From Branchiostoma lanceolatum (taxonomy: Eukaryota; Chordata; Leptocardii; Amphioxiformes; Branchiostomatidae), in contig NC_089726.1 in the NCBI RefSeq assembly GCF_035083965.1, positions 25,280,559-25,344,558 on the forward strand: a stretch of DNA of 64,000 nt, in the 5' to 3' direction. The notes beneath the pieces are model-generated. The model saw only the letters and a program-made list of their open reading frames with translations, ran no database searches and had not been told where the DNA came from. Below, piece by piece: positions 10,699 through 62,079 of the stretch; position 1 is the stretch's first letter, and the number at the start of each line of letters is the position of its first letter. Position numbers and translations under genes: made by a program.

Positions 10699-10835
10699 TT
10701 AATGGACTTACAGTGGTGAGGGAATTGAGAGGCTATGGTCCTACCTGAAACCATTCTTTAGGATTACAAAATAGATGACCCCTTCACATTGAGTAGACCT
10801 CCTAACTGATGATCTGCTGCATTTTGCTAGGTGGA

Positions 10836-13206
10836 CACTGCACGAAATGTCCTGGTTTCCTGGCGAATCCGACGGATCCGGAATCGGGCCTAATGGCGTT
10901 TCCGAGCGAATCCGGACAAATCCCAGTTCACTGATCAGATACCGAGGTGCCCAGATATCCGACCAACGTCGTCGCCGTAATCCTCTGGATCCGTGATGCC
11001 CCTCGGATACCCAGAGATATTTGCACGGATCACGCGTTTTTTTTTGTTTTTTTTTTGGTTTTTTTTTGGTCTTTTTTTTTTTAATATTTGGAATGTTCGG
11101 ATTGTTTGTATGTCGGTAGTTGCTTCAGATCCTGACGAATAAACGCACACGGCACGGCATGATCTCAGATCCTGACGAATCCAGCAGATCCGGAATCGCG
11201 CATCATAGCAGATACGAAACGTTTCCGTTCGGAAGCGATGCACCTCAAATCCGACAATTCCGGCGCCATATACGTCTGGATCCTTGATACGTTTCTGGTA
11301 CAAATACAATATTTACTCAGACTTTTATTATTTAATGTATTTGTCAATAAGTTAATGGTTCAGATTATTTGCAAGCCAGGAGCTGTCTCGGATCCTGGCG
11401 GATACGGAACCGGGTTCCCCGTCCGATATCCCACAAGACACTGCGTGTCATGACGTGAGGTGGGCGAGAGAAACGTTTTTTCGGTGAACAGCACAGACAA
11501 GAACGGCGTTTCATCACTCTCTGTGCTTAACATGGCATCGCCAGAGTCTACCATGGTCGACCAGTGATTTTTGAGGGGCTTAAGAGTCGAAGGAATTCGT
11601 TGTAAACTCAGACGCACGGAATTGCGACGTTGTCTTCTTTGTGCATGCAATATTCGTCGCCCCCCTGTAAAGCCGGTAGGGAGTCGATTCATTATTTAGA
11701 GGGACTGCCCTTTGGTAAGTACAAATTGGAAAATTCCTGTTTATAACTAGTTTTATCGTCAGTTATCCTCCTATTGTGGCTTGACATATCATCTCATTCG
11801 CATGACCATAATCATTCTCCAGCCGACCTGTCCTGCTACACCGTTAGGATCTAGGAGATTTATAACTTTCAATTTGTTCATTTTTGCCAATGGTCAACAA
11901 ACATTTGTGTCTGGTTAACGTTTCAGATACAAAATAACAAACAGTTGAGGGAAACATAATTAAAGATATCCTGTAATTGAAGAGAAGAAAATGTTATAAA
12001 TATTTGTCAAACAAAGCCAAAGGTCCCAAAGTTTGTGGATAGTGAGCTAGAACTTTTGTGGAAGCAGAAGTTTTTTTCAGTGATTATTGCATTCAGCTAT
12101 AGTTGTGCATGTTTGATCAATATCATATTCAAGTTATAAATATAAGTTTTACGTATTCAATTCAACGATGCCAGATTCATTCATTCTTTTTACAAATGTG
12201 ATTATGTGATATTTTTAATATTTGTCATTGTTGCCCTTAATATAAATGTCCAGTACAGTGAGCATAAACAGACACTTCCTTCACAAATGCAGCACAAGCA
12301 ATCAGCTGTCAGATGCGCAGCTGCTGAGTACCTCAGGTTCCTTCGGTAAGGCTAAATTCCATCATCGGTACATTTGTTTGTCAGGTGCTGTGATGAAACG
12401 AAGCCTATCGCAGTTATGTCAAATTCATATGACATGTTTCTTAAATATGTGAATTGATATTTATTCATCATTTGCTTTTATCATATAGGAACTAGCATCA
12501 CAAGATGGACTCTAAGCTAGGTCCACCATGCGGATACAGAAGAAATCAGCCTTGCCTGTACCTTACCTAGAGTGCATGGAAGAAGTGAACTCAGATGTAG
12601 TCAGAGATTGTAGGAAGTCTGTACGTTGAATCTGTCTGTATCCATGGCAAATACATACTGTACGTATCTGTCAGTATCTGTGGCAATTTCGTGCAATGTA
12701 CGGCCCCGTACCTTATTTTCGGATTCCACCGGAAATATTCCCGATCACGGTGCGCGTTAGGCCAAAGGTCACCATTACAGTCATGCGCAGAGGGTCCATT
12801 TTAATGGCATGGAAATGGCCTTGTACATGCTTGTTAAAAGTAGCTGTAGGAGGCCTCTTTGTTGGAAGGTCTTGTGAGAGGGGGTCAAAGGTCATCTCGC
12901 CATGTTTTGATAGAATTTCACCAGTTTGCGCCGGTGGAAAATCGGCGAAACTCATTAGATTGACATTTTAGAGGTCAGACTACGCTGCCAATGTGAGTTT
13001 TCCATGATCTAAACTTCAGGTAGGTGACTTTTAACAGCCTTTTTCTTATATGTTCACCATTGGAAGTCTAGGGGCCCGTGAATGGTGGATTTCAGCCGTT
13101 AGTCTGATCCGTCACGTTGCATCCGTCTATATTCGCCAGTATCTGACAAAAATAGAGAAAAATCCTTGTGCGTATCCACCGGGATCTGAGGCCATTTCGT
13201 GCAGTG
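10836..13206 (+). mobile_element. CACTA-like element, copy A (about 2.4 kb)
   Basis: It begins CACTGCACGAAATG (10836) and ends CATTTCGTGCAGTG (13206), giving inverted ends of the CACTG type. Left subterminal repeats (10836-11460) are rich in GGATCC-type words. The right ones (about 12610-13206) are rich in CTGTCAGTATC/GGATAC-type words. The middle (11460-12607) matches the four-exon-like module of copy C on the plus strand; its exon-1 donor is at 11714 and exon 2 starts at 11927. Compared with C, the exon 2 donor is lost and about 600 bp between exon 4 and the right repeats is deleted. Flanking triplets GGA and ATT do not match, so the copy may be rearranged. Confidence 0.65.
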
Positions 13207-15276
13207 ATTGTAAATAGCATAGAGTTCAAATTAGCTAGAAACAGGAATTTTTAGTTTGTTCTTACCAAAGGTCAGTCCTTCTAAATGATGAATTGACTCC
13301 CTGCCAGCTGTACAATGGGGAGGGGTGCGACAAATATTACGAAAAATCGTTTAGCTGGGAGCTATCCTTTTTTTCTTCCTTCTCAGATAGGAGGATTGGC
13401 TTCCTGCTGATTTTTAGGTATTTGCTTAAACCTGCTTAGTGGGACCATTTAAGCAACCGTTTAAGCAAACTTAGCTTAAATCTTAACTTTTACAATACTA
13501 TTAAGCATCGTAATCTTTACTTAAATCTAGAGACATAAGCCGCATTAAGCCTCCGTAAACCGTACGTAGTGGCACTCATTTAAGCGACGTTTTAGCACGG
13601 TGCAATCAGCTTAAAAACAAATTTTGGTCGTCGTTAATCTGTTGTAAAAATCTATTTGCACCGCGCATGGGCACCAATGCCGGATAACTGCACCATTTTT
13701 TTTCAAAAACCCTCGACAAGTTAACTGAAAAAGTGCGCTAAAATCGGCAAACGCGGTACAAATGAGCCGATACCTGCCGGTGTAAAGGCGCAATACCGCC
13801 AATATGTTTAAAACTGTTTTGAGTAACAAAAGAAGGCGATCTCCATTGACAGTTACGTTGATATGAATCGTATGGGAGGTCCCGGGTGGGTCACACGTAA
13901 TCAGTAACCAAGTTTTAGTTTCAATTCCTAGTTTCTTGGCGGTACATGACTTACGTAAATCGACAACTGCACTCTACGTAATGTAACACAGAAACTGTTA
14001 TCCCATGAGTGGCATGACGATGTTTCAGAATGCCTCCCCTGTAACATTACGTAAGTTGTAATGCGGTAGATCGCATGGAAAAATGAAAGAATGCAAAATC
14101 AAAGCAGGTTCGTAGTCATTTCTTTATTTTCAGCAAAGGGTCAATACATCAAATTAATAACTGAATAATTTCGTCTGTTTTCTTTGTGCTAGTGTTTCTG
14201 ACTAACAATACACCCACTCGCCCATGGTGGTGCGGTCCAGCTGGGCATTTCGCATAATTGCACCAGCCGGATAATTGCACCAAAAACGCTGACAAATGAG
14301 TGGTGCAGTTAAGCGGATTCCATTGTACAGGGTTTCCTCCCTCCGTAACAAAACAAACTATGATCTAGAATACACATCTCTGTCTGTCCATTTGCATCGA
14401 CGCCAACGTCGCGTCCTCCAAGTGAAAAAAGGCATTGTCTAAGTACAAACGTCGTGTCATACATTCTATTCTAACGGATAATAAAGGCATTTCCTTTATC
14501 AATTCATTGTTACCCTTTGTTATGTACATCGAACAAACAGAATGCCTAAAATGTGGTCGTCGGTTTGTGAAAGCCGCTCAATTTTTATGTAATTTCGTGA
14601 TTATTTTGACTGCGTTTTTTTTTTTTACTTAGACACAGGATTTGATTTGATTTCATTGATTTTGTTTTGTATTCGACTCAGTGTTGCATACTATAGGTTA
14701 TGTATACAACAAAGGTCTTTATTTATTTATTATTAGCACCTGGTAACTTACCTTTTGCCATGTGTAAGCATGTCGATTTCAATTGTCAGAAGAAGAGTTT
14801 CCCACGCCGTCTTGCTGAGATCTCTCCTCTATGCACTCCACGTTCTGGCGAAGTTGTGTATGTTCTGCCCTGCGTTGCGTTTGTATCTAAAGCGTTACCT
14901 TCTCCTAACTCAAGTTCGGTCGTAATTATGGTTTTACTGACACAATGTACGTCAGGGCTTACCTTTCAATGATATATGTTTGACATTTGATGAGGAAACA
15001 ACATGGATTTAACCAAGGAAGTTAAAAGAAAAGGTATACACCGAAACTGATAATTCTGTACGAATAAAAAATATCTTCCAACAATGACGTCTACTAAAGC
15101 ATGAATCAGACAGAAGCAGCCGATAGTATCAATTTTCCCACTGTGATCAAGTAGATTAAAATAGACTTTTAACCGCCTTGGTTTGACATCATTACGTCAA
15201 CTTTGTGTTACGAACTTACTCATCAATCCCTAGCGCAATATTTGACTTCTCAGTGGCTACTTTGAATCTATTACCA
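13207..15276. other. Intergenic; Tigger/pogo-like remnants and AT-rich repeats
   Basis: No gene is supported. 13420-13610 carries many TTTAAGC/GCTTAA words, also present in the 122-bp repeat at 21404-21650. 14240-14330, read on the minus strand, starts ACAATGGAATCCGCTTAACT, which resembles pogo/Tigger-type termini. A related GGATAACTGCACC word sits at about 13680. 14940-15240 is one copy of a diverged repeat whose second copy is split across 16005-17068. Confidence 0.4.
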
Positions 15277-15482: not shown

Positions 15483-16096
15483 CATACGGTTCAACAAGTA
15501 CAAGATACAGTATCATGTAAGGTAAACAAGAACGGCAAAGGTGAGTCACTGATTAAGTTGCATCTGACGTCGACTACAGCAGTATCCACGATAGAACACA
15601 GTTCATGGGGAGCAATGCGCTTGCAAGTAAAGCAACTGGATTTCTTGTGAATTTCAGTGTTGAGATTGGGTCCAACTTTTTCACCGAGTTTATTAACCCT
15701 TCATTGCTTATTTGTTGAAAGTTGTGTTGGAGCTGGTGGGTTGTATTTCTATTTTATACTTCTAATTTATAATATAATACCTAACACTTGCAATATGCTT
15801 TGAAAATGTGAACCCCAACACCACTGACCCACGGTTTCAATTCTTAGAAATGCAGCAAATAGAGTTCAAATTAACAAACTAATGTCTAATTAGCAAATTA
15901 CTAGTACTCTTGAAAATTGGGGATAGTACGCAGATTGTGTAATTGTTTCAGCAAAACTCTGGGGGAATTTTTTTTTTTTCATTTGCCACCAAACATCGCG
16001 TCCCAGAGTAAACAATGACAGTATCTACAAATGACATCAGGACTTACCTTTCAAGATCTTTCAATAATAGATCTATACGTTTGACGTTTTAGGAAA

Positions 16097-16110
16097 TAGC
16101 AAGAATTAAA
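16097..16110 (+). repeat. Left copy of 14-bp target site duplication
   Basis: TAGCAAGAATTAAA here is repeated exactly at 16826-16839, bracketing the Penelope-like insertion. A duplication of this length fits target-primed reverse transcription rather than cut-and-paste transposition. Confidence 0.8.
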
Positions 16111-16188
16111 ACGTTGATGAAGGTTAGACATCCAGGTAATAAGATATGCCAAAAAAATTACTCAAGCAACTGGATAAGATTTTGAAAC

Positions 16189-16232
16189 AGTCAGACGTTT
16201 CAGACAGTATCCACTGTCTTTCGTCAGTGACT
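16189..16232 (-). ncRNA. Hammerhead ribozyme motif (type I layout), minus strand
   Basis: Read on the minus strand: AGTCA (helix I), CTGACGA core, one extra A, AGACAGT-GGAT-ACTGTCT (helix II), GAAA core, then CGTC with the predicted cut after C16194, then TGACT, which pairs with AGTCA. All conserved core bases of a hammerhead (CUGANGA and GAAA) are present. Helix III is only AC/GU with no loop, as in hammerheads thought to work as dimers. One unpaired A precedes helix II. Confidence 0.72.
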
Positions 16233-16447
16233 AACGATAGGACTGAGAACACCAGGTTTTATACCAAAACTCTGAATAGATATGTTAATGAGGTAAAGAC
16301 AATTTAGGATGTCTTGAAGTAGTCTTTAAAAAGAAGATTAATTCAAGACAAAGTTTATGCCAATAGTTCAATTAGCTACTGTTGTTCTAGTACAGTAACT
16401 AAATGTTGCTTGTCCGGGAGTGGGGGGTGGTGGGCAGTGCATTATCC

Positions 16448-16603
16448 CAAGCAATATATGAGAGGATGTACAACCCCGCCCTCAACAGGAAAGGGGGTCT
16501 ACGCGTTCAACTTTCAGGCACCTGGGATAATGCACTGCCCACCACCCCCACCCCCGGACAAGCAACATTTAGTTACTGTACTAGAACAACAATAGCTAAT
16601 TGA
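16448..16603 (+). pseudogene. C-terminal scrap of a Penelope-like ORF
   Basis: The frame encodes QAIYERMYNPALNRKGG and continues to TWDNALP, with a stop TGA at 16601-16603. AI..R...P.LNR..G followed by a W-D/N motif resembles the end of the GIY-YIG endonuclease region that closes Penelope-like proteins. Only about 50 codons remain, and roughly the last 20 overlap the inverted arm. It is a truncated remnant, not a working gene. Confidence 0.6.
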
Positions 16604-16738
16604 ACTATTGGCATCAACTTTGTCTTGAATTTATCTTCTTTTTAAAGACTACTTCAAGACATCCTAAATTGTCTTTACCTCATTAACATATCTATTCAGA
16701 GTTTTGGTATAAAACCTGGTGTTCTCAGTCCTATCGTT

Positions 16739-16782
16739 AGTCACTGACGAAAGACAGTGGATACTGTCTGAAACGTCTGACT
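16739..16782 (+). ncRNA. Hammerhead ribozyme motif (type I layout), plus strand
   Basis: AGTCA 16739-16743, CTGACGA 16744-16750, an extra A at 16751, helix II strands 16752-16758 and 16763-16769 around loop GGAT, GAAA 16770-16773, CGTC 16774-16777 and TGACT 16778-16782. The last segment pairs fully with the first. The predicted cleavage is after C16777. It is the exact counterpart of the minus-strand motif at 16189-16232, so both are intact in this insertion. The ACGT around the cut is self-complementary, which would let two molecules build helix III together. Confidence 0.75.
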
Positions 16783-17068
16783 GTTTCAAAATCTTATCCA
16801 GTTGCTTGAGTAATTATTTTTGGCGTAGCAAGAATTAAACTTTAGAAGAAATGTATACAACGAAACTGATAATTACATACCGAGGAAAAGCTTGCAACAA
16901 CGCCGTCTGCTAAGGCATGGATCGGATAGAAATGGTCGATAGTTTCTATTTTCCCTCTTGAACAAAAAGCGTAAAAATATATTTTCGACCTCCTTGCTTT
17001 GACATCGTATGTCTTTCTCTTTCCATTTGGTGGTACGAACTTTCTCATCATTCCTTCCCTAGCACGAG

Positions 17069-18355
17069 ATACCACTTACAACAGTCGAGCTGATTGAAAG
17101 AAAGACGAACGCTTTCGTTCGTAAGTGGTTAGGAGTGCCAAGATGCCTTTCAAGCGTTGCACAGGTAGGACACAACAAGCTCAGCCTCCCGTTTGTCTCA
17201 GTTACAGATGAGTTCAAACTAGAGAAGGTGAGACTTGCACTGGAGCTTCAGGGGTCAAGAGACAACTCAGTCAGAGCAGCCTACAAAGAACAGAAGACAG
17301 GCAGGAAGTGGAGAGTAGGCGAGGTGATAGAACAGGACGTCAGTAGACTGAGACACAAGGACATTGTCGGAGCTGTGCAGTATGGAAGACAAGGGCTAGG
17401 TTGGGGTGGAAAAACCCAGCGTTGGGAGCGAGCAAACCCCAAAGAGAGGAAACAGCTGGTAGTGGAAGAAGTTAAGAGAATGGAAAACGAGAAGAGGAGA
17501 GTGACAGCAGTAAGCCAGAAACAACAAGGTGCATGGGTTAACTGGGAGGAAGCCATAGACAGGAGATTATCGTGGAAAGATCTGTGGGAGGTCCAAGGCT
17601 GCAGCTTAAGTTTCTTGCTAAGAGCAGTATACGATGTTCTCCCTTGTCCACAGAACTTGAGCAGGTGGTTCGGGAAGGAGGAGTGCTGCCAACTGTGTGG
17701 AAAGGAGAAAGCGAACCTCAAGCACATCCTGTCAGCATGTACTACTGCCCTTAAGCAGGGGAGATACACGTGGAGGCACAACAACGCACTAAGAGTGCTT
17801 GCAGTAGCGTTAGAAGAAGAAAGAAGGAAAACAAGAGTAGAAGAGTCAGCCAAGGCCCAGAAGAAGGTCATATCGTTTGTTAAACAGGGGCAAAAAGTGG
17901 TGCCAGGGACCAAGAGCAAACAAACAGGTGGCATTCTGAATAAGGGTCAATTGAAGATGTCAGTAGACCTGGACACTCGTTTATGTTTCCCCAGGCACAT
18001 CTGCGAGACAACGCTGAGACCTGACCTAGTGCTATGGTCTGAGGAAGCAAAAGCTGTCATCATTGTAGAGCTGACTGTGCCATGGGAAGAAAACATCCAG
18101 GCAGCATTCGAAAGGAAGAAACTCAAATACCTCAACCTTAAAGAACAGTGTGAAATGAAGGGTTGGAGGACGTTGCTTTACCCGGTGGAAGTAGGGTGCA
18201 GAGGGATCGCAGGAACTTCGCTAGCCAGGTTGTGCAGGGACTTAGCCGTTGGAAAGAAAGTAATGAAGAAAATGGCAGAGGAGGTGGAAAAGTCTAGCTT
18301 TTGGCTATGGACCAGGAGAAGGGAAAAAGCCTGGGGTAAGAAGATGACATCATAA
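17069..18355 (+). mobile_element. 5'-truncated LINE with CCHC finger and restriction-like endonuclease (R2/NeSL/HERO type)
   Basis: The open frame runs from about 17063 to the stop at 18353-18355. It enters in the post-RT region with AFVRKWLGVPRCLSS, the KWLGLPRC-like box of these LINEs. It then shows a zinc knuckle CCQLCGKE...LKHILSAC followed by GRYTWRHN, and the endonuclease core RPDLVLW, an Ile/Val-rich strand ending VELTVPWEE and a lysine at KLKY. These are the PD...E...K residues of the restriction-like nuclease. The reverse transcriptase itself is missing, which is typical 5' truncation during retrotransposition. The frame is intact for over 400 codons with no stop or frameshift, so the insertion is fairly young. 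The 5' junction lies at about 17069, where similarity to the host repeat (14940-15240) ends. Open frames on the opposite strand are shadows. Confidence 0.85.
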
Positions 18356-19489: not shown

Positions 19490-21400
19490 GCAAACTGAAA
19501 ACAATTGCAAGCGGCGAGTGCACACGACTCGCGGGAAAAAGTGCTTGCGTTTAAACCTTTCAAAGTATACCAGAATTAGCAAAAAAATATCTAGACCTTC
19601 AGAAATAACACTGAGTTTTTTGAAAGTGTGGTGTGTTTGTTGACTAAATTGTTGTTCACTTTGGCCGAAACGATACTGCCGCATTTCAAATCCTTTGGTA
19701 TGCATGCTGTGCGCGTTCAGAGGAACTTTTGTGCGATACTTGTACACGATTTGATGGTTGCTTGTTCCTATCTCGAGTTGAATAAACCACACACGCTTTG
19801 CCAGATTGGCAATGTTAAGACAAAATAAATGTTACGTTAGGATATGAGACTTAGGTTGAGAGTTTTTACAGAGCGGGCGCAATGTTTGTAAGAACACGGA
19901 AACTGTTCGTGCAAGAATTTTGTCTCCCTGAAAACAAGCGGCGATCGAGTGCCCACGGCTCGCGGGAAAAAGTGCTTGCTTTAAAACCTTTCAAAGTACA
20001 CCAGCAAGCCATTTAGAAACAACCCGCAGTAAACTGAGGTTTTTGAACGTGTGATGTGTTACGTTGTCGACTAAATTGTTGTTCACATTTGCCATAACGA
20101 CACCGCCGCATCTTCAAATCCTTTTGTATTCATGCTGTGCGCGTTCAGAGGAACTTTTGTGCGATACTTGTACACAATTTGATTGTTGCTTGTTCCTATC
20201 TCGAGTTGAATAAACCACACACGCTTTGCCAGATTGGCAATGCTAAGACAAAATAAATGTATCGTAAGGATATAAGACTTAGGTTCAGAGTTTTTACAGA
20301 GCGGGCGCAATTTTTATTAGAAAACGGAGACTGTTCGTGCAAGAATTTTGTCTCCCTGAAAACAAACGGCGATCAAGGGCACACTGCTCGCGGGAAAAAG
20401 TGCTTGCGTTTAAACCTTTCAAAGTACGCCAGGGAGACCTTGAGAAAAACCAGTAGTATACTGAGGTTTTTGAAAGTTTGATGTGTTACATTTGCTGACT
20501 AAATTGTTGTTCACATTTGCCAAAACGACACTGCCGCATTTTCAAACCCGTCGGTATGCATGCTGTTCGCGTTCAGAGGAACGTTTGTGCGATACTTGTA
20601 CACAATTTGATGGTTGCTTGTTCCTATCTCGAGTTGAATAAACAACACACGCTTTACCCGATTTGCAATGTTAAGAGAAAATAAATGTAACGTTAGGATA
20701 TAAGACTAAGGTTTAGGGTTTTTACAGAGCGGGCGCAATGCTTACAAGAACACGGGAACTGTTCGTGCGACAATTTTGTCTCACTGAAAACAATAGGCGA
20801 GTGCACAAGGCTCGCGGGAAAAAAGTGGTTGTGTTTAAACTTTTCAAACTACACCAGCAAGACATTTAGAAACAACCCATAGTATACTGGCACAGAGGTT
20901 TTTGAAAGTTGTCTGTGTTGCATTTGTCCACTAAATTGTTGTTCACATTGGCCAAAACGACACGAACGCATTTTCAAATCCGTTGGCATCTATGCTGTGC
21001 GTGTTTGGTTGAACTTTCGTGCGATACTTGTATACAATTTGATGGTTGCTTAATCCTATCTCCAGTTAAATTAACCCGACACGTTTTACTAGATTGGTAA
21101 TAAGACAAAATGAATGTAACGTTAGGATATAAGACTTAGGTTTAGGGTTTTTACAGAGCGGGCGTAATGTTTATAAGAACACGGGAACTATCCGTGCAAT
21201 GATTTTATCTCGTTCTATAATGCTTACGTTTAAACCTTTCAAAGTACACCAGAAAGACCTTAAGAAATGAACCGCAGTACACTGAGGTTTTGAAAGTGTG
21301 ATGTGTTACATTTGTCGTCTAAATTGTTGTTCACTTTTTGCCAAAACGACACCACCGCATTTTCAAATCTGTTGGCATTTTTGCTGTGCGCATACCATGG
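19490..21400. repeat. Satellite-like tandem array, 428-bp period, about 4.4 units
   Basis: The marker GAGCGGGCG occurs near 19871, 20299, 20727 and 21156, spacings of 428, 428 and 429 bp. Each unit also holds CTCGCGGGAAAAAGTG, a TTAAACCTTTCAAAGTA block, GACTAAATTGTTGTTCAC and TATCTCGAGTTGAATAAAC. Divergence rises towards the right end. It starts and ends mid-unit, as expected for an array shaped by unequal exchange. Confidence 0.88.
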
Positions 21401-29793: not shown

Positions 29794-31172
29794 CAGTCCC
29801 CCTGTCTTGCAGGTGATTGTTTTCCCATCTGGAGAAGCAGCCAACTGCCGTTTGATCAGCGGAAAGAGCAGCTCGCTTTCCCAGGGCTGCTCTCTCCAGC
29901 TTCCTCAGGACCTCCTGCACAGCTGAGGTAGGAAATGTAGAGGGGAGGGTAGAAGCCTGAGGCGGGAGGGTGGCAGCTCTAGAGGGGAGGGTGGCAGGTC
30001 TAGAGGAGAGAGTGGCAGCTCTAGAGGGGAGGATGGCAGGTCTAGAGGAGAGAGTGTCAGCTCTAGAGGAGAGAGTGTCAGCTCTAGAGGAGAGAGTGGC
30101 AGCTAGAGAGGGGAGGGTGGCAGCTCTAGAGGAGAGAGTGGCAGCTCTAGAGGAGAGAGTGGCAGCTAGAGAGGGGAGGATGGCAGCTCTAGAGGAGAGC
30201 GTGGCAGCTCTAGATGGGGAGGATGGCAGCTCTAGAGGGGAGGATGGCAGCTCTAGAGGGGAGGATGGCAGCTCTAGAGGAGAGAGTGGCAGCTCTAGAG
30301 GGGATGGTGTCAGCTGGAGAGGGGAGGGTGGCACCTGGAGAGGGGAGGGTGGCAGCTCTAGAGGAGAGAGTGGCAGCCGGAGAGGGGAGGATGGTAGCTG
30401 GAGAGGGGAGGGTGGCAGCTGGAGAGGGGAGGGTGGCAGCTCTAGAGTAGAGAGTGGCAGCTGGAGAGGGGAGGGTGGCAGCTGGAGAGGGGAGAGTGGC
30501 AGCTGGAGAGGGGAGGGTGACAGCTGGAGAGGGGAGGGTGGCAGCTGGAGAGGGGAGGGTGGCAGCTCTAGAGGAGAGAGTGGCAGCTGGAGAGGGGAGG
30601 GTGGTAGCTGGAGAGGGGAGGGTGGCAGCTGGAGAGGGGAGGGTGGCAGCTCTAGAGGAGAGAGTGGCAGCTGGAGAGGGGAGGGTGGCAGCTGGAGAGG
30701 GGAGGGTGGCAGCTGGAGAGGGGAGGGTGGCAGCTGGAGAGGGGAGGGTGGCAGCTGGAGAGGGGAGGGTGGCAGCTGGAGAGGGGAGAGTGACAGTTGG
30801 AGAGGGGAGGGTGGCAGCTGGAGAGGGGAGGGTGGCAGCTGGAGAGGAGAGAGTGGCAGCTGGAGAGAGGAGGGTGGTAGCTGGAGAGGGGAGAGTGGCA
30901 GCTGGAGAGGGGAGGGTGGCAGCTGGAGAGGGGAGGGTGGCAGCTGGAGAGGAGAGAGTGGCAGCTGGAGAGAGGAGGGTGGTAGCTGGAGAGGGGAGAG
31001 TGGCAGCTGGAGAGGGGAGGGTGGCAGCTGGAGAGGGGAGGGTGGCAGCTGGAGAGGGGAAGGTGACAGCTGGAGAGGGGAGGGTGACAGCTGGAGAGGG
31101 GAGGGTGGCAGCTGGAGAGGAGAGAGTGGCAGCTGGAGAGGTGAGGGTGGCAGCCGGAGACATGTCTCTAAC
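29794..31172 (-). CDS. Candidate exon containing a LPPSPLQ-type repeat, or a short exon 29794-29922
   Basis: On the minus strand an acceptor TTTTCAG precedes 31172. The frame then stays open through the whole 21-bp minisatellite as a leucine/proline heptad (LPPSPLQ). It continues into nonrepetitive AVQEVLRKLERAALGK and a cysteine/tryptophan segment, with donor GTGAGT at 29793. A second acceptor (TACCTCAG before 29922) would give only the nonrepetitive part, leaving the minisatellite intronic. Because the 21-bp unit keeps all frames open, openness alone is weak evidence. The plus strand also has AG and GT borders here (29813, 29929), so the coding strand is unproven. Confidence 0.35.
29942..31165. 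repeat. Minisatellite, 21-bp unit, about 58 copies
   Basis: The unit is GGAGAGGGGAGGGTGGCAGC plus T. Two main variants are ordered along the array: CTCTAGAG-type units fill the left third, CTGGAGAG-type units fill the right two thirds, and a mosaic zone lies between. The purine-rich strand is strongly G-biased and has runs able to form G-quadruplexes. The unit length is a multiple of three, so long frames appear on both strands. Confidence 0.95.
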
Positions 31173-32688: not shown

Positions 32689-34067
32689 AAAGCTGGGGTT
32701 TTCCCTTTTCCGTAGACCAGTACTCGCATACAACCATGCATTTTTACAACAGTCGTATAGAGAAATAGGTAATAAAGGCAATCTCCCCAAAAATGCGGAG
32801 GACATGTTTTATTGGTAAATAAACAAGGCTAAGAAGTGACTATATTCGGCCGCGTCACTTGGTATCTAGGCACCTTTAACCCTTGACCGCATGGCCCGAG
32901 ACGCCAGCTGGGCGTTTCCTGACCCGATGACACACATAGTATACAATTTGTAAGTTAGTCCTTTAGGTATTACACGTTATAGGTCGTTCCGTAGCTACGT
33001 TGGATTGAAAATGAACTGTTCTGTGTCGCACGGCTTGAACAGAAGTTAACGTTCGGTTCTGAAAACATCGTATCACGCTTACCGCTGCGTGTTTGGTCAC
33101 CGTTGCAATAAAAGTACGCGCGTTGCAAAGGATATTTCACAGACGAAGGTGCTTAGAGGCTGTTGCGCAGGGTTTTATCCTTGAATATGCGTACATGTCC
33201 TTATAAACGCTACATTAGGATGACGTGGTATTTTTTGGGAGTAAGTTTTTAAAAGAGGGTGGGTATTTTCATGACCAAGATTAACACATTTGTATACTTC
33301 ATTGTCAAGTTAAAACATTTTATTTAGATATCCCCACCCCGGACCTTGCACCAGGCTAGCTCGGGCAGTGCAATGGAGCTGGTATGATATTGCAACGATC
33401 CCGTCAATGTAGTCTTGCCCGCTAAAATCGGGCGCCCCGCGGGTCCTGGTACGTACTGAGGCGTTCTAGTGCGCCTGCGCGAACCGAACGTTCGAATTTT
33501 AGGCTTTCCAGTGAGACGTGGTCGGCAAATGGCGACGTTTCTGAATATCCAGAATCCGCTCTTCTGCTGACGACAGCCAGCAGTGATTGTTTACGCCCGG
33601 GTTTCTATTGTTTGATTCGCGCTGAAGCACGGCGAACGATTAGAGTTGAGCTCATCTTGACTTCCATTTGTTAGATCATGACCCAATAAATATTCTGGGG
33701 AAGTTACATATATGACATGTGCATAACGGAGTGTCGCTATCTTTGGTTAAATTTCTTAGAAAGAACCAGCGGCTGAATTCATTCTACACAAACCCGGCGT
33801 GGGTAAAACAAAGATGGCGGCCTTCTGGCTACGATAATCACCTCCAAGATAGTCTCCGCCTTTAAAACACGAAGCTCCTCCCCCAAGAGTACGATCTGGA
33901 TAAACACCCTTGTTTATCCCAGACGCGCTCCGCTGGAGCACATCTGGGAAATCCCAAACCTGCACTCCTGGCTTGGGACGTGTTTTGGATATCCAAAAAC
34001 TGCCCCAGAGCGGATTCTGGATAGAGAGCACATTCTGGATATAACAGCGCCAACAGATTGTAGTCAG
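32689..34067. other. Intergenic, dispersed repeat, upstream of the THAP exon
   Basis: 33515-33610 is a copy of the 22940-23000 repeat and shares TTTCTGGATATCCAGAATCC-type words, with further words near 33955-34040. The frame in phase with the THAP exon stays open for some distance upstream, but with no start codon in a likely place. No gene is supported. Confidence 0.35.
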
Positions 34068-34438
34068 CCTCAATGTGGTGGAAATCACTGTGTAGCAGGC
34101 GGGCAAAATGAAGCTAGCTGCAAGAATGGCAGCTACACCGAATGTATATCTATGCACCAGTTCCCTCAAGTGAAGAATACCGGAACTGTGGCGGGTAAAG
34201 AGAATGAGAAAAGAAGAAAATTGTGGATCAAGTTTGTGCAGCGGCATCGGCCCCATTTTGAAGCTTCCGCGTCATCTATGTTGTGTTCCGCACACTTCAA
34301 GTCCTCGTATTTCACCGCAAATCTGGACATCGCAAAGATCTGTGGAATGAGGAGAAGGGTAAAAACAGATGCAGTTCCAACCATAGACATTGCTGGTTTG
34401 CCGCCGCCAACTGCCCCTGCGACAGATCGGGCCCATAC
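34068..34438 (+). CDS. THAP zinc-finger domain exon
   Basis: THAP domains are C2CH zinc fingers that bind DNA; they occur in transcription regulators and P-element-type transposases. The frame encodes QPQCGGNHCVAGG, then SCKNGSYTECISMHQFP, KLWIKFV, MLCSAHF and DAVPTID. Both zinc cysteines, the C-x2-H pair, the invariant Trp, the Phe-Pro and the AVPTI end of the domain are visible in order. The usual start Met-Pro-x-Cys is replaced by Gln-Pro-Gln-Cys, so the exon begins by splicing or the start codon is lost. A TAG follows at 34440. A weak donor GTAGAC at 34439 leaves phase 2, which fits the acceptor before 35232. Confidence 0.75.
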
Positions 34439-35231
34439 GTAGACGGGTGAGTTTGATGTTATATGTAACGTAATATATTCCCAGTGCAGTGTAGAGTAAC
34501 TTGCGAATTCTATACTGGTTTTTTTTCTACACCCGCGGTGCCTCCCACCGATTTCTATCATGAAAATGGTAGAATCAAGTAGAGTCGATATATGTTTGCT
34601 GTACGTTTGGTCGCCAAAAGCAAGCAGTCTTGTGACATATTTGTCGACGTCGTCTGAAAACAAGCACGCATTTCAATGACAAACAAAATTATGGCGACAA
34701 CGCCACAGGTTAGCTTTTCCTGTCACGAAATTTACTGTCCGTATTCCTAAATAATTTCAAGAGCTGTTTTTTAACGATCTTTACTGTGATTACACCAGTG
34801 AGGTATTAGTTCCCGTTGTTCCCCGAAAAACAAACTACACTAGTGAATGTTGTCAGCATCGTCCTTGGCATCGTCAACCAAGCGCGGCGTCATTTTCCAT
34901 AACAAACAAATGGCGCCCGAGCGGATTCCCTGCCACGAAATTTTTTGTCTGTGTGACTCGATTTCAAGGGCTGAAATTTATTGTTATAATAAATGGTACA
35001 CACCTAATGCACATGGTGTTTTGGCGATGGACAAATTTACAATCAGCGTATGTTCTAAATTTCTGAGCGACTCACCTAACAAACAAATAATGGAACAAAT
35101 TATGAGACCGCATGTATATTGCGCTAGCAATGGTTCTTGGCACCAGTTTCGCTTTGATAACTCTAATTTTTTGTTAACGCCGATATTGATTTTGACGTAT
35201 CAAACAACTTAAACGATTTTACTGTGACTAG

Positions 35232-37296: not shown

Positions 37297-38237
37297 CAGT
37301 TTATTCTGCTTGTTTTCCAGGACTTGCGACTCTGAGTGATCTTTACCCTCTGGGTTGTCCCACTTCCCCAAAGGGGTGGTAGTGGGTTCACCACATTGAG
37401 TATATTATGGTCTTTGCAGTAGGTATATATCTGAGTGTGAACGGCCTTTTCAAAAATCTTCATAAAAGACGGTAAAACTGAGATCGGCCTAATAGTTGCT
37501 GCAGCTGTTTTTGTCGCCATCTTTAAAGGAAAGCTGCACAAAAAATTGAAAATCCTTCTATGCTATGCTTAATATATTCCAAAGTCAAATTCTGACTTCA
37601 AGTTGTTTCACATAAGTCCGTCATAGTTCTGGGATTTTCCACAGTTTGCAACTTATGCCGTGCTGACGCCTTCTCGCCTGATAATTGAATTATATGACGT
37701 CAGTGTTTCAAATTTTTCACCTGATGATTGAATTTCAGAACACTGACGTCATACAATACAATCATCAGGTAAAAAATTTGAAACACTGACGTCATATAAT
37801 TCAATTATCAGGTAAGAAGGCGTCAGCACGGCATAAGTTGCAAACTGTAGAAAATCCCAGAACTATGACGGACTTATGTGAAACAACTTGAAGTAAGAAT
37901 TTGACTTTGGAATATATTAAGCATAGCATAGAAGGATTTTCAATTTTTTGTGCAGCTTTCCTTTAAATAAGGGTGTAACCTTAGCTCTCTTCCAGTCCTT
38001 CGGAACCTCACCTGTAGAGAAGGATAGGTTATATATGTAAGTGAGAGGACCTGCTATAACTGGGGCGGCATACCGGAGGAGCCTACTGCTCACCCCATCA
38101 AGTCCAGTACTTTTCCCCAGAGGGATGCTCATCAGCTGTTTGTATGTGAACTCGGTGGATATATTTCCAAATTTAAAAGAAAACTGTGACGGTCCTAGGA
38201 CCGCTCTATATGCAAGTACGCAAGGGTGTATTTTCAT
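37297..38237 (-). pseudogene. LINE reverse transcriptase fragment, split by a palindromic insertion
   Basis: On the minus strand the first part encodes GKSTGLDGVSSRLLRYAAP and EVPKDWKRAKVTPLFK. After the insertion it continues with a DKNSCSNY-like stretch, RPISVLPSFMKIFEKAVHTQ and a cysteine/asparagine end. These are the DGI...L, P..WK.A.V.PLFK and NYRPIS boxes of non-LTR reverse transcriptases (CR1/Rex/jockey-like group). One extra base before RPIS breaks the frame. The match stops near 37400, before the catalytic FADD box. It is a dead fragment. Confidence 0.8.
37522..37967. mobile_element. Near-perfect palindromic MITE inserted in the LINE fragment
   Basis: Arms of about 210 bp start and end at AGGAAAGCTGCAC and its complement. 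Both borders carry TTTAAA (37522-37527 and 37962-37967), which reads as the target duplication, or a TTAA target plus matching ends. The LINE reading resumes across the insertion once it is skipped. Three TGACGTCA words (CREB/ATF-type sites) lie around the centre. Confidence 0.82.
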
Positions 38238-42444: not shown

Positions 42445-43626
42445 TCACATCAGCAAAATCCCTGAACCTGTGAAGATAACAAAATAACTTTTCATCGTAT
42501 ATTACAATCCTCAAAAGCGTTAACTTGTAGACGAATCCAAAGGTGTGGACTATTTTCCTACTTTCTGCTGTACAAAGATACACATATATTGTACACCTTA
42601 TGTGTGATGAAGTGTTAAATTAACTTTAATGCCAGCTCTACTGGAAATATAAGAGTTGTTAAAACCGGTTGGGTGTTTGGAGAAAAGCATGTAGTGCAAT
42701 GTGATGTATTTGCAGTTGATTGTATACATTATGACAGTGCAGCTTTAAACTTTGCAGGGTTGACTATGCTACTAGTCTGTATAAAAGCCAGAGAAGCATT
42801 AAATGTATACTATTGTACAGCCTGGATCTGTACTACTCACTATTTTACCTTATTACCAAGGAACCGTACTGTATGGAACACAAGTCACTATACCGTTAGT
42901 GCGGAAAAGTATTTTATACGTTCACAGTGGATCTAATTTCGCGGTAAGGAGAAATGAAGTTCTCGTGGTGGCTTTGAGTTTGTGATGGCGCTATGGATGG
43001 TCTCATACAGTACAGTGGGGAACGAATTCGATTTTAAGGGTCACCGTGCGAAGTCAATTACAGTAATGACGGCGATGTATTGGCTAGTTGTCCGGAAAAA
43101 TAAGACCTGATTCACATTCGAAAAATTTTCTGGACATACGACAACGACGTACAACAAAGACGTACATCTTTGGCGTACAGCACCTTTTTCCAGAGTGTGA
43201 ACTGACCATGCGTATCACAGGACAGGCATTTTTATCGTTGTACGTTGCCGCCAAGGTGAACGAACGAATTGTACGGGCCATAAATATGCCTGTCACGCAA
43301 AGCGCAGGGTTGATTCACACTCAAAGTAACATTGTACTGTCTGAAAAACTCACGCCACATTTTGAACGTAAGAAGTATATGCAGTGGAACTGCATGTGTA
43401 TAATCGTCCTCTCCCCATTCCCTGACTACATCTGAGTTCACTTCTTCCATGCACTCTTGGTAAGGTACAGGCAAGGCTGATTTCTTCTGTATCTAGCATG
43501 TTGGACTCAGCTTGGAGTTCATCTTGTGATGAACCAGTTCCTATATGATAAAACCAAATGAATAAATATCAATTCACATACTTAGTATTTAAGTAACATG
43601 TCACATGATTTTGACATAACTGTGAT

Positions 43627-43658
43627 CAAGGAGGTTATATAGACTATATAACCTCCTT
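43627..43658. mobile_element. Tiny palindrome, likely a minimal hAT-like MITE
   Basis: CAAGGAGGTTATATAG followed directly by its complement, flanked by CTGTGAT on both sides. Copies A and D lack both the palindrome and one flank. The same insertion is present in copy C at about 48653-48685. CAAGGAGGTT-type ends also occur in the AT-rich element around 28600. Confidence 0.6.
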
Positions 43659-43968
43659 GCTGTGATGGGCTTCGTTTCATCACAGCAGCTAACAAAAAAA
43701 CAAGGGACAATGGGTATCCATCATGCCTGTCTCAGCTAACATTGAAGTGTACCGATGATGGACTTACCGATGGAGCCTGAGGTACTCAGCATCTGACAGC
43801 TGATTGCTTTGTTCCAAGCCAAGCTAAGGTCCTCACAACATGTGCTGCATTTGTGAAGGAAGTTTCTGCCGATGCTGTATAGGATATATATATAACGGGA
43901 AACAATGACAAATATGAAACATATCACATTATCACATTTGTAAAAAATGAATGCGGCATCGTTTAATT

Positions 43969-44364
43969 CAATCAATCAATCATTCGCAGGCATCAGTGTC
44001 TGATGCATGGCGGCTGCAGACATGCATAGGGCTCGCCAGGCTGGTCTGCTCTCGGCGTGGACCCTCCAGTTGTTTCTGGTAACTCCCAGCCCCTGGAGCG
44101 TGTTGAAGATCTGGTCTTCCCATCTTCCTCTAGGGTGACCTCTAGGTCGCTTCCATGACGGGTTAGGTTCCGATGAAATCAGTTTGATGGAGCCCTGAGT
44201 AAAAACCGCCCTGGAGACGTGGCCCAGGAAGATCATCTGTTGTTTTCTGATTCTACAGCTAACCGGCAGTTGGTTAGTTCTTCAACGGACCGTTTCGTTT
44301 GTAATGAAGTCATCCCAACGGATGCCTTCAATCTTCCTCAAGCACTGAGAGTCGAAGGCATCTA
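43969..44364 (-). mobile_element. 5'-truncated RTE-like LINE 3' end, 8-bp target duplication
   Basis: GTTTAATT at 43961-43968 and 44365-44372 brackets the insert; copy C has a single one. On the minus strand it encodes QQMIFLGHVSRAV, KRPRGHPRGRWEDQ and RVHAESRPAWRAL, the GHV.R / RGRP..RW.D / A.DR..WR tail common to RTE- and CR1-type LINE proteins. It then ends in a TGAT/TTGA short tandem tail. The orientation is minus. A related, more decayed copy is at 63490-63615. Confidence 0.78.
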
Positions 44365-45892
44365 GTTTAATTGAATACGTAAAACTTACATTTATAACTT
44401 GAACATGATATTGATCATACATGTACAGCTATAACTGAATGTAATAATCACTGAAACACACTTCTACCTCCACATAAGTTCCAGCTCACCATCCACAAAC
44501 TGTGGGACCTTTGTGGGACAAATACTTATGACATTCTCTTCCATTACAGGATATCTTTAATTATCTTTCCCTCAACCGCTTGCCATTTTGTATCTGAAAC
44601 GTTAACCAGACACAAATGTCTGTTGACCATTGGCAACAACGTACAAATTAAAAAGCTATAAATTTCCTAGATCCTAACGGTGTAGAAGTGCAGGTCGGCT
44701 GGACAATTCTTAATGTCATGCAAATGCGATGATATGTCAAGCCACAATAGGAGGATAACTGACGTTTAAACTAGTTAGAAACAGGAATTTTCCAATTTGT
44801 ACTTACCAAAGGGCAGTCCCTCTAAATGATGAATCGACTCCCTACAAACCTTACAAGGGGGAGGGGGCGCGAATATTGCATGCACGATGAAGACTACTTC
44901 GCAATGCCGCGCGTTTGAGTTTACACCGAATTCCCTTCGACTCTGAAGTCACTAAAAATCACTGGTCGACCATGGTAGACTCTGACGATGCCATGTTAAG
45001 CACAGAGAGTGAAAAACCACCGTTCTTGTCTCTGTGCTGTTCACCAACAAAACCGTTTCTCGCGCCTGACGTCATGACACGCAGTGTCTTGTGGGAGATC
45101 GGACACGAATCCGTATTCCGTATACGTCAGGATTTGTCGGAATTGTTGGATCTGAGGTGCATCGGATCCAGTCGGAAACGTTCCGTATCTGCTATGATGA
45201 ACGATTTCGGATCCGCTGGATTTTTCAGGATCTGAGATCATGCCGTGCAGTGTGTATTTGTTGGTTAGGATCCGAAGCAACTACCGACAAACAAACAATC
45301 CGATTATCTCTACCATATTGACAAATATCTAAAAACGAAGGATCCGCGCAAATATCCTCAGGTATCCGAGGCGCATCACGTATCCAGACGTATACGGCGG
45401 CGGAATTGCCGGATCTGAGCTGTACCTGGTATTTGTCTGAATTTGCTCGGAAACGTTTCGTATCTGGTCCCCAAAACGTATAAAGGATCCAGACGTATAC
45501 GGCGCCGTAATTTTCGGATCTGAGGTGCATCGGATCCAATCGGAAACGTTCCGTATCTGCTATGATGCGAAATTCCGGATCTGCTTGATTCGTGAGGAAA
45601 TGAGATCATGCCGTGCCGTGTGTATTTATTCGTCAGGATCCGAAGCAACTACCGACATACAAACAATCCGAGCATTCCAAATATCAAAAAACGAGGGATC
45701 GGCGCAAATATCTTCGGGTATCCGAGGCGCATCACGGATCCAGAGGAATACGGCGTCGGAATTGGTCGGATCTGCGGGCACCTCAGTATCCGAGCAGTGA
45801 ACTGGGATTTTTCCGGATTCACTCGGAAACGCCATGAGGCCCGATTCCAGATCCGTCTGATCCGTCAGGATACGTGGCCATTTCGTGCAGTG

Positions 45893-46987
45893 TAATGAGT
45901 ACCTGAAAGTTATAATACAGGTATACGCATACTAATCACATACCTTTTGGCTGATATACTTGCTTTCATCAACCTATCGAATAGACAGCGATTCTACAGA
46001 AGTGGAACCAAACATTCTATCACTCTACACTGTTACTATTAGTAGTATTTGATTATTATTTACATTAAAACTATCGAAAACTGATATTGTTTGTTTAAAC
46101 ATAGAAGCTTCATGGATCCCTGATGCAAATATTTTCATAAGATATCATATAATCCGTCACTAAATCACCGCAAACGTCACGTGGGGAGATATGCAAGTTA
46201 ATAATGACGTAAAATAACGCTTAGTACACACCTCAGTTTCCGTGATGTCCAGCGTTGTCGAAAAAAAGGCAGACGTTGATTTCTCCCCACCAGAACATGT
46301 GCAAACAGATAGATTTCATGTTTCAGGAGGTCTTATTCGCTGGTTAATTGGGAAAAGGCACCCAAACACGGGCTGAACTTGGCCTAGACTTTCCGCTGCG
46401 TCTAAATCACCATTGTACGCTACGTCGCTGCTGTCTGTCCAAGCACTGTGATATTTTTGTCGGACGATCATGAAACACTTTCCACACGAAGCGTACAAAT
46501 ATGGCTGCCTTCTTCTACAGACTTAGCCCGTCATGTGACCGGAATAGCGAGTTATGGTTAGTCAAAGTTGGTGTGTACAGAACAATGGGGAACTGGGCTG
46601 CAGTACCGCTGCGGCCGCAGGTGGCGCTTGGCGCCAAATTTGAATTTCAAATTTTCACGCTCGCGCAAACTAAGGCGCTGAATCGGAACGCCAGTAAAAA
46701 AGCTAGTGAAAAAACATATTGGGAATCTTGGGATGTTAGTTAATATGCAAATTACTTCATGTTGTATTTTGTAACACCATGACGTTTTTTTCACAAGGCA
46801 GACGGATAGAGCCTCCCTTTAGATTGAGTTAATTCAATCTCGTAATGGTACTTGCACAGGTGAGCTGACAAATAATGACTAATGTTGCAAAAGCCACAGT
46901 GTGCGCTCCCGATTTGCAATGCACAAAATACCTACATAGTTACACCGAGGAAACACTGTAAATACAAAAGGTAAAAGCATTAGCAAG
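45893..46987. other. Spacer between CACTA-like copies; no supported gene
   Basis: No exon is supported here. 46501-46743 is an open frame in GC-richer sequence starting MAAFFYRLSPSC. It has no splice signal that I trust. The spacer is not shared with the flanks of other copies. Confidence 0.35.
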
Positions 46988-47770
46988 CACTGCACGAAAT
47001 GGCCTCGTTTCCCGGCGTATACGTACCGGTATTTTTCTGTATTTTTGTCGGATACTGACGGATACTGACGGATACAGGCGGATTCGTGTAAGATATCCGA
47101 CAATTTCCGCACCGGTATATGGAATATTTCCGGAAGAATCCGAAAGTAAGGTATATTCGACGAATACGGAGCCGTACACTGCACGGAAATGCCACCGATC
47201 CTGACGGATACGAACAGGAAATTTTCTGTATTTTTGGCGGATACTGACGGATACAGGCGGATCCAACCTGACGGATCCGACTAAATGCGCACTGGGATAT
47301 GGAATATTTCCGGAAGAATCCGAAAGTAAGGTATTTTCGACGAATACGGAGCCGTACACTGTACGGAAATGCCACAGATCCTGACGGATGCGTACAGGGA
47401 TTTTTCTGTATTTTTGGCGGATACTGACGGATACTGACGAATCCAACCTAACAAATCCGAAAATTTCCGCACCGGGATCGTGAATATTTCCGGAGGAATC
47501 CGAAAATGAGGTATTTTCGACGGATACGGAGCCGTACACTGTACGGAAATGCCAGCGATCCTGACGGATACGTACAGGAAGTTTTCTGTATTTTTTAAAA
47601 GAAAATTGCGGATACTGACGGATACAAGCGGACTGTGATCCGGAACCTCAGATCCGGAGGAATACAAAAATAGGAATTTTCGACGGATATGGGGCCGTAC
47701 ATTGCACGAAATTGCCCAAGATCCTGACAGATACGTACAGTATGTATTTGCCACGGATACAGACTGATCC
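46988..47770. repeat. Subterminal repeat array of copy C (160-190 bp units)
   Basis: Units start near 46988, 47177, 47357, 47537 and 47699 with CACTGCACGAAATGG-like words. Each contains TTTTCTGTATTTTT, one or more GGATACTGACGG words and GAATATTTCCGGA. The array repeats the element terminus itself, as expected for transposase-binding regions of CACTA elements. Confidence 0.8.
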
Positions 47771-48339
47771 AACATACAGACTTTCTACAATCTTTGACAT
47801 ATTGTGACTCTGAATATGTTTGTATTTGCCACGAATATGTACAAATCAAACACACAAAGTTTGATAGAATGGTTGATTATTCATAAATACGCGTGCATTC
47901 TTAATTTAACGAATTATTATTCAATGACAGGAAGTTTTGGGAAAGCATGAATGTAACATCATTTCATATTTCAACATATATGCATTTCTAAGTTCAAAAA
48001 CTATCAAATACAATACGGAAGTTCTATGTGGCTAAATAATCCATTTCGTTTAAGACAGGCCGAGGGACATCCACATACTCAAAGCACCTCTGCATATGCA
48101 GGTTAATGTCGGTAAATTGGGGTTGTGTAAGCACAATTGTTATAAAATGTATTACAATCAACAACCATCACATCATGGTGGTAATATTTACTGCCGTATA
48201 GTGCACTTGGACCAAAAATTTCTACATGTTCTACATATTCTACTAAAGTAATGAAAGCCTTATTTGTGGCCAGTTCTTCGTCTAAAAGATATCAGATACA
48301 AATAATTTCAAATACAGAGGTTGAAAATAGAAACTTCAA

Positions 48340-48564
48340 AGTAACATTATACTGTCTGAAAAACTCCCATGATGACACGCCACGTTTTACACGTAGTAGT
48401 ATATGCCGTGGAACTGCATGTGTATAATCGTCCTCTCCCCATTCTATGACTACATCTGAGTTCACTTCTTCCATGCACTCTTGGTAAGGTACAGGCAAGG
48501 CTGATTTCTTCTGTATCTAGCATGTTGGACTCAGCTTGGAGTTCATCTTGTGATGAACCAGTTC
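48340..48564 (-). other. Exon-like block 4 of the CACTA-borne module (copy C)
   Basis: On the minus strand it is preceded by CATATAG and begins GAACTGGTTCATCACAAG. The frame YQECMEEVNSDV is open here and in copies B and D, but other frames are also open in B. Small indels between copies make a conserved protein doubtful. The 3' limit is not clear. Confidence 0.4.
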
Positions 48565-48800
48565 CTATATGATAAAACCAAATGATTAATAAATATCATT
48601 TCACATACTTAGTATTTAAGTAAAATGTCACATGATTTTGACATAACTGTGATCAAGGAGGTTATATAGACTATATAACCTCCTTGCTGTGATGGGCTTC
48701 GTTTCATCACAGCAGCTAACTAAAAACAAGGGACAATGGGTATCCATCATGCCTGTCTCAGCTAACATTGAAGTGTACCGATGATGGACTTAAGCCTTAC

Positions 48801-48909
48801 CGAAGGAGCCTGAGGTACTCTGAGCATCTGACAGCTGATTGCTTTGTTCCAAGCCAAGCTAAGGTCCTCACAACATGTGCTGCATTTGTGAAGGAAGTAT
48901 CTGCCGATG
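48801..48909 (-). other. Exon-like block 3 of the CACTA-borne module (copy C)
   Basis: Preceded by CCTATACAG and followed by GTAAGG on the minus strand. It can encode FLHKCSTCCEDLSLAWNKA followed by ISCQML. Copy C has two extra bases near its end relative to B, which shifts the frame. Copy A has an internal deletion. Confidence 0.4.
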
Positions 48910-49098
48910 CTGTATAGGATATATATATAAAGGGAATCAATGACAAATATTAAACATATCACATAATCACATTTGTAAAAAATGAATCTGGCATCGTTTA
49001 ATTGAATACGTAAAACTTACATTCATAACTTGAATATGATATTGATCAAATATGTACAGCTACAACTTAATGCAATAATCACTGAAACACACTACTAC

Positions 49099-49224
49099 CT
49101 CCACATAAGTTCCAGCTCACTATCCACAAACGGTGGGACCTTTGTGGGACAAATACTTATGACATTCTCTTCCGTTACAGGATATCTTTAATTATCTTTC
49201 CCTCAACCGCTTGCTATGTTGTAT
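49099..49224 (-). other. Exon-like block 2 of the CACTA-borne module (copy C)
   Basis: Acceptor GTTTCAG and donor GTAGTA on the minus strand. Part of it encodes NVISICPTKVP in one frame, but upstream bases need another frame, so a full coding exon is not supported. In copy A the donor is mutated. Confidence 0.35.
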
Positions 49225-49436
49225 CTGAAACGTTAACCAGACACAAATGTCTGTTGACCATTGGCAAGAACGAACAAATTGAAAGCTATAAATTTCCTAG
49301 ATCCTAACGGTGTAGAAGTGCAGGTCGACTGGACAATTCTTAATGTCATGCAAATGCGATGATATGTCAAGCCACAATAGGAGGATAACTGACGTTCAAA
49401 CTAGTTAGAAACATGAATTTTCCAATTTGTACTTAC

Positions 49437-49720
49437 CAAAGGGCAGTCTCTCTAAATGATGAATCGACTCCCTACCAACTTTACAAGGGGGAGGGGGGCG
49501 ACGAATATTGCATGCACGAAGAAGACTATTTCGCAATGCCGCGCGTTTGAGTTTACACCGAATCCCCTTCGACTCTCAAGTCACTAAAAATCACTGGTCG
49601 ACCATGGTAGACTCTGACGATGCCATGTTAAGCACAGAGAGTGATGAAACGCCGTTCTTGTCTCCGTGCTGTTCACCGACAAAACCGTTTCTCGCGCCTG
49701 ACGTCATGACACGCAGTGTC
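49437..49720 (-). other. Exon-like block 1 of the CACTA-borne module (copy C)
   Basis: The block ends CTGCCCTTTG before GTAAGT on the minus strand; that donor is conserved in A, B and C. It contains ATGGCATCGTCAGAG with only 11 codons before a stop, so it may be an untranslated leader. The start lies somewhere right of the GGATCC-rich array border and is not defined. Confidence 0.4.
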
Positions 49721-61871: not shown

Positions 61872-62079
61872 CCACTTTTCCTGTATCTACCGTTTCAAGC
61901 TGTTCACAGCCCTTTGCAGGCACCAGTTAAGTACATCGAAATGAATAGCCACATTAATGACACCCGCAGAAGACTATATGCAGCGCTGACATCTGCGATG
62001 GATGAGGCCGTTGCTAACATCACTATTGCTTTAAAGCAGAAGGGGTTGTGGAAAAACACTATTCTTATCTTCTCTACAG
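61872..62079 (+). CDS. ARSB: Arylsulfatase B-like gene, exon 6
   Basis: Encodes PLFLYLPFQAVHSPLQAPVK, RRRLYAALTSAMDEAVANIT and GLWKNTILIFST. H271 in the AVHSPLQ box is an active-site histidine of the family. NDT and NIT are possible glycosylation sites. Acceptor ATACAG; ends phase 1 before GTATGT. Confidence 0.95.

Follow-up and report, generated by a model that had tools for sequence, protein, structure and literature searches.

Penelope-like elements (PLEs) carry hammerhead ribozymes in their pseudo-long terminal repeats (pLTRs), usually without helix III and possibly acting as dimers, and the role of these ribozymes is called unknown in the available text of PMC7761336. In Adineta vaga, PLEs form inverted pLTRs that stand head to head, with palindromes at the junction and foreign sequence between solo pLTRs. 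An optional tail of 31 bp is present on one of the inverted pLTRs, and target-site duplications (TSDs) of 8–10 bp accompany some copies and are absent from others (PMC3846280). In PAc, the Poseidon element of Anolis carolinensis, reverse transcription begins internally on the RNA, with +111 to +118 of the open reading frame as its commonest start, and the enzyme, which prefers ATT in AT-rich targets, cuts and extends both target strands, the start of reverse transcription being the same for either strand (PMC11167929). The same study equates the 30–40-bp PLE tail with the stretch between two start sites of reverse transcription, and reports that PAc RNA does not cleave without protein and cleaves when protein is added (PMC11167929). 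Here we describe a unit at positions 16111–16825 of a 64-kb stretch of the Branchiostoma lanceolatum genome (contig NC_089726.1; the whole stretch of 64,000 nucleotides is called the window, and positions are counted from its first letter). The unit carries two minimal hammerhead motifs and is very probably a non-autonomous product of PLE retrotransposition, made of a head-to-head pair of pLTRs in an AT-rich target, flanked by a TSD of 14 bp.

Anatomy of the insertion and its hammerhead motifs

The unit, its flanks and its motifs are made up as follows, with the basis of each assignment in brackets.

14942–15248, no strand: insert-free site, a diverged paralogue of the insertion locus (aligned to the joined flanks)
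16097–16110, no strand: left copy of the TSD, 14 bp, TAGCAAGAATTAAA (exact repeat of 16826–16839, abuts the insertion)
16111–16825, no strand: whole insertion, two pLTRs of apparent PLE type, head to head (inverted repeat; bounded by the 14-bp repeat; absent from the paralogous site)
16111–16449, minus strand: left pLTR arm, with its ribozyme sense on this strand, tail-ended, reaching outwards to 83 nt beyond the cut site (repeat search, arm alignment, end distances)
16111–16147, minus strand: 37-nt tail segment, in the left arm only (arms compared downstream of C17)
16189–16232, minus strand: type I hammerhead motif of minimal form, with the cut-site C17 at 16194 (descriptor scans)
16450–16522, no strand: 73-nt non-repeated centre of the head-to-head junction (repeat search, arm alignment)
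16523–16825, plus strand: right pLTR arm, without a tail, reaching outwards to 48 nt beyond the cut site (repeat search, arm alignment, end distances)
16708–16714, plus strand: TATA-like TATAAAA upstream of the motif, with a mirror copy in the left arm (sequence)
16739–16782, plus strand: type I hammerhead motif of minimal form, with the cut-site C17 at 16777 (descriptor scans)
16826–16839, no strand: right copy of the TSD, 14 bp (abuts the insertion)

The two arms align as an inverted repeat of 276 nt (16151–16426 against 16545–16820) with 5 mismatches (∼98% identity), and they differ further by indels and by the tail. GC-rich inverted stretches of 27 bp (16423–16449 and 16523–16549) flank the centre and continue the arms inwards, and the last base of the right arm, 16825, is mismatched to the left arm. 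Matches to microRNA precursors at 16413–16558 fell below gathering scores and were rejected as products of this GC-rich palindrome. The TATAAAA at 16708–16714 could, as a guess from its letters and place, be an internal pLTR promoter.

The unit is an insertion. The 14-bp repeat that brackets it includes ATT and consists of A or T at 11 of 14 positions, and among random pairs of flanks taken from the window, 8 of 2,000 had at least 14 matching letters. Further, the paralogue at 14942–15248 aligns across the joined flanks with a single copy of the target region, the identity being 70% across 241 nt to the right and 82% across 28 nt to the left; because it is a paralogue and not an allele, it supports the insertion but leaves it undated.

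The hammerhead core comprises CUGANGA, GAAA, the A15.1-U16.1 pair, H17 and helices I and II. By this definition, all core bases are present at this locus together with helices I and II, and the two motifs are letter-identical (AGTCA-CTGACGA-A-AGACAGT-GGAT-ACTGTCT-GAAACGTC-TGACT). Helix I has 5 bp (AGTCA/TGACT), helix II has 7 bp, and helix III consists of ACGU only (two pairs). In both motifs one additional A stands between A9 and helix II, so that the G10.1-C11.1 pair which usually closes the helix is missing. Inspection revealed no internal loop inside the 5-bp helix I, and the canonical helix III and the loop-loop contacts of metazoan retrozymes were not found. A strict descriptor (the core, helix II of at least 5 bp and helix I of at least 4 bp) was satisfied at these two places in the window and in none of 200 dinucleotide shuffles. 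With the limits relaxed to 4 bp for helix II and 3 bp for helix I, the descriptor again returned two places and was satisfied in 4 of 200 shuffles. A scan without any requirement for helix I added one weak candidate, with a 4-bp helix II, at 58830; both descriptors dropped it. The first-pass annotation, made by a model from the letters alone, had placed CTGACGA, the 7-bp helix II, GAAA and the helix I strands in exactly these two motifs, and this part of it was found as described. Overall, the motifs look real and of the known minimal PLE sort. The identity of the two motifs was also considered as a sign of selection and rejected as such, since 5 mismatches in 276 nt would leave 44 nt clean by chance in ∼45% of cases (a Poisson estimate by hand).

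We infer PLE parentage from anatomy and not from sequence homology. Like the minimal type I hammerheads of PLEs and Terminons, the motifs combine the conserved core with a missing or tiny helix III and lie in pLTRs, but they are inverted rather than tandem and are thereby without a same-sense partner in cis (via PMC7761336). The locus likewise resembles insertions of the endonuclease-containing Penelope elements Pen2a, Pen2, Pen5 and Pen6 of A. vaga, whose inverted pLTRs are mostly head to head with an optional tail on one of them, and whose copies show a junction palindrome, in some cases a TSD and sometimes no PLE coding sequence inside (PMC3846280). It differs from these insertions in having no PLE coding sequence between the pLTRs, in its 14-bp TSD and in its visible hammerheads, a term that does not occur in the main text of that paper (PMC3846280). 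With PAc it shares CUGANGA followed by one extra nucleotide (U in PAc), helix II, GAAACGUC and an AT-rich target with ATT; the comparison is one of motifs, and it also shows a helix I of 5 bp here against 3 bp in PAc and no ATG at the corresponding place here (PMC11167929). The end positions can also be compared. Counted on the printed RNA, the main start of reverse transcription in PAc lies 82–89 nt past the hammerhead cut site (PMC11167929), and the outer end of the left arm lies 83 nt past it, although PAc is a single yardstick and the text of that study does not say which of the two start sites, the one with the tail or the one without, lies there. The tail of the left arm, 37 nt, compares with the published 30–40 bp. 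The claim of the first-pass annotation that this is an inverted, almost protein-free Penelope-like insertion with outward-pointing motifs was supported by the end geometry, the asymmetry of the tail, the TSD and the paralogous empty site, its PLE character being a matter of anatomy.

The longest stop-to-stop frame in the unit has 90 aa, and no Pfam match was obtained for the 3 frames tried out of the 6 listed; the unit is therefore not an autonomous PLE, which would encode a telomerase-like reverse transcriptase with a GIY-YIG endonuclease; a coding function of the unit was rejected on the same grounds. A lysine-rich frame of 54 aa (16143–16304) runs antisense to the hammerhead and is mostly repeated in the other arm (49 aa); its 54-aa form has no Pfam match.

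Several results weigh against PLE parentage or against parts of it. No Pfam match was found in the 3 frames tried out of 6 listed, and no reverse transcriptase or GIY-YIG sequence is present in the unit. The empty site is only a paralogue (∼70% identity) and not an allele. The TSD of 14 bp exceeds the reported 8–10 bp, and some inverted A. vaga copies are without a TSD (PMC3846280). The text of PMC11167929 places one start region only, and if that start is the tail-less one, the match at 83 nt would belong to the wrong end. Enrichment in A and C is confined to the end of the tail (10 of the last 15 nt, 18 of the last 35 nt). Pattern scans of viral and prokaryotic contig collections returned no sequence relative; two loci that matched (L001 and L002) look like chance and were rejected. 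Finally, the Rfam hammerhead models gave no match in the whole window at gathering scores, nor in 15900–17000 or 16733–16790 at E values up to 10. The first-pass annotation had proposed this covariance check and named the absence of a hit above threshold as grounds for giving up its claim, and read literally that is the result. Since helix III is usually missing from the PLE motifs in the literature, we do not treat this as decisive; with no known minimal PLE motif as a control, the non-match counts more against a three-helix form than against a minimal one.

Predicted folding and activity of the motifs

Because helix III consists of ACGU only and is unable to close on itself, cleavage would probably need a dimer or a protein. 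In the predicted fold of the bare 44-nt motif, helices I and II are kept and GACG pairs with CGUC across the core (−16.9 kcal/mol, compared with −12.7 kcal/mol for helices I and II only). As the RNA is lengthened, the predicted probability of helix I falls from 0.28 in 56 nt to 0.02–0.03 in 126 and 275 nt, and that of helix II from 0.97 in 56 nt to 0.44–0.47 in arm transcripts; in the longer one-arm RNAs, three predicted hairpins are favoured and the core is hidden. The first-pass annotation had called both hammerheads intact. The core is indeed present, but the word overstates the case: given the extra A, the two-pair helix III and the strong competing hairpins, cleavage of a lone RNA is doubtful.

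The same folding test gave a helix I probability of 0.000 for the PAc motif, and because that motif nevertheless cleaves with protein, a low prediction would mean that help is needed and not that the motif is dead. Of the 7 letters of CUGANGA, a predicted 5' hairpin takes in all at this locus and 5 in PAc. It is possible, from these two cases, that this hairpin represents an off-state of PLE hammerheads. That a protein helps PAc RNA to fold was already suggested (PMC11167929), and the shared inhibitory hairpin may be added to that suggestion by the present analysis, again on two cases.

In the minimum-energy folds of both full-length strands (715 nt), all 44 ribozyme nucleotides are paired with their complement, and the outward orientation of both motifs means that the complement always precedes the motif in transcription. 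With the complement made first and the predicted pairing complete, self-cleavage of read-through RNA in cis is unlikely, contrary to the earlier proposal that RNA made across the locus in either direction would be cut by the ribozyme it carries. Each read-through transcript holds one sense motif and so could not form a same-sense dimer with itself, and with one motif per strand in 64 kb there would be no second cut and no excision of a monomer. Overall, these predictions suggest that the motifs at this locus are probably silent in read-through RNA, being locked in a hairpin of ∼300 bp. Activity, if any, could arise only in trans, through dimer formation with a second PLE transcript or with help from PLE protein, or else in RNAs whose start lies within a single arm. 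The hairpin may feed small-RNA silencing; small RNAs from PLE copies have been reported in A. vaga (PMC3846280).

Origin of the head-to-head form

If the locus is a PLE product, its inverted form could have arisen by self-priming on an antisense PLE template, the route proposed in PMC3846280, which we regard as a serious possibility, though short of probable, once PLE parentage is granted. The palindrome at the junction and the 98% identical arms are features of the type from which that study infers self-priming (PMC3846280). However, the outer ends lie at the places expected for starts of PLE reverse transcription (83 nt past the cut site here, 82–89 nt in PAc; 37 nt between the two ends, against a tail of 30–40 bp), which a fold-back copy would have no evident reason to respect; the second of these comparisons is one of tail length. 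The arms also differ at 5 of 276 sites and by indels, although later mutation can explain this.

The end positions favour a second route, two-sided priming, which we consider the most likely one, although a single locus cannot settle the matter. In this route, a PLE enzyme would cut both strands of the target and start reverse transcription on each. The PLE RNA would be copied from two alternative internal start sites, giving one arm with a tail and the other without, and the two cDNAs would be joined at their 5' (head) ends, so that the tails would point outwards and the target would be duplicated. The hammerhead near the ribozyme-sense 3' end of each pLTR would be an inherited part of the PLE. 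As a combined account, in which target-primed reverse transcription from two sides, at two start sites, left the locus behind as a fossil and PLE hammerheads are off by default and switched on by a tail-bound protein, we offer this tentatively and consider it rather unlikely to hold in full. A search of a partial collection of papers returned none that joins Penelope, target-primed reverse transcription and inverted head-to-head copies, and we claim no novelty for two-sided priming.

Other identities, neighbouring features and significance

Outside a PLE origin, the unit could be a foldback DNA transposon or a miniature inverted-repeat transposable element (MITE) moved by a transposase and bearing a PLE-like motif by chance. 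Long inverted repeats, a short centre and a flanking duplication are what such an element would show, and the window holds other palindromes (for example, 37517–37734 with 37755–37972). We nevertheless consider it improbable: the left arm runs on for 37 nt beyond the inverted repeat, which is thus not terminal, the TSD has 14 bp, the end positions fit PLE features, and of the 36 other inverted pairs of at least 60 nt in the window, the 5 examined had neither a flank repeat longer than 8 nt nor a hammerhead.

A single pLTR insertion followed by inverted duplication, or an assembly artefact, is more improbable still. The near identity of the arms would suit it, and assembly trouble with such repeats was noted in A. 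vaga (PMC3846280), but the 14-bp duplication brackets the entire palindrome, and the arms differ in substitutions, indels and tail.

The least credible reading, in which read-through RNA would cut itself into a small circular RNA as the first-pass annotation had suggested for a retrozyme-like source, has in its favour the type I motifs, the small size, the near absence of coding sequence and a TSD of more than 4 bp, as in metazoan retrozymes (PMC7229834), but those non-LTR retrozymes, small and non-coding as they also are, are tandem repeats with canonical hammerheads (PMC7229834), whereas here there is one motif per strand in 64 kb, with neither two same-strand hammerheads in direct repeats nor the two same-strand cuts that circles would need, and in the full transcript the motif is predicted to be wholly base-paired to its complement; RNA circles from the locus are unlikely.

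A non-autonomous PLE product remains our preferred identity for the unit. Elsewhere in the window, a second near-perfect palindrome (37517–37972), with 218-nt arms and a 20-nt centre, has no hammerhead and no flank repeat longer than 5 nt; the frame adjoining it presumably resembles a non-LTR reverse transcriptase and has no Pfam match. Just downstream of the insertion, an open frame of 430 aa (17063–18352) has a weak zf-RVT match (E 0.009, below the cut-off) and resembles the C-terminal portion of a non-LTR reverse transcriptase; nothing about it points to a PLE. Inverted pairs of 78–327 nt, 81–99% complementary and 31–39 kb apart, link 10835–13215 with 43416–50527 (among the 25 of 37 pairs listed) and probably belong to one repeat family in opposite orientation. 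Tandem repeats comprise a 21-bp minisatellite (29939–31160; 58 copies), which is open in several frames on both strands and has a strong GC skew in the 4 kb around it, and a 428-bp repeat (19515–21211; 4 copies, 84% matches). Two exon-like frames at 61821–62597 match Sulfatase (E 2e-9, and E 1.5e-4, below the cut-off) and probably represent a host sulfatase gene, and a THAP-domain frame at 33807–34439 (E 1.3e-13) is either a host gene or a transposase relic.

How PLEs insert, and why head-to-head copies are frequent, is treated as open in the literature: PMC3846280, in its available text, asks for further experiments, and PMC11167929 calls the steps yet to be validated. A minimal insertion whose ends differ by the length of a tail provides a clean natural record of PLE insertion, and two-sided priming, if true, would make antisense self-priming unnecessary as an explanation of the long-standing inverted structures of PLEs. 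Overall, the value of the locus is mostly corrective, in that hammerheads which point outwards in a palindrome are expected to be self-silenced.
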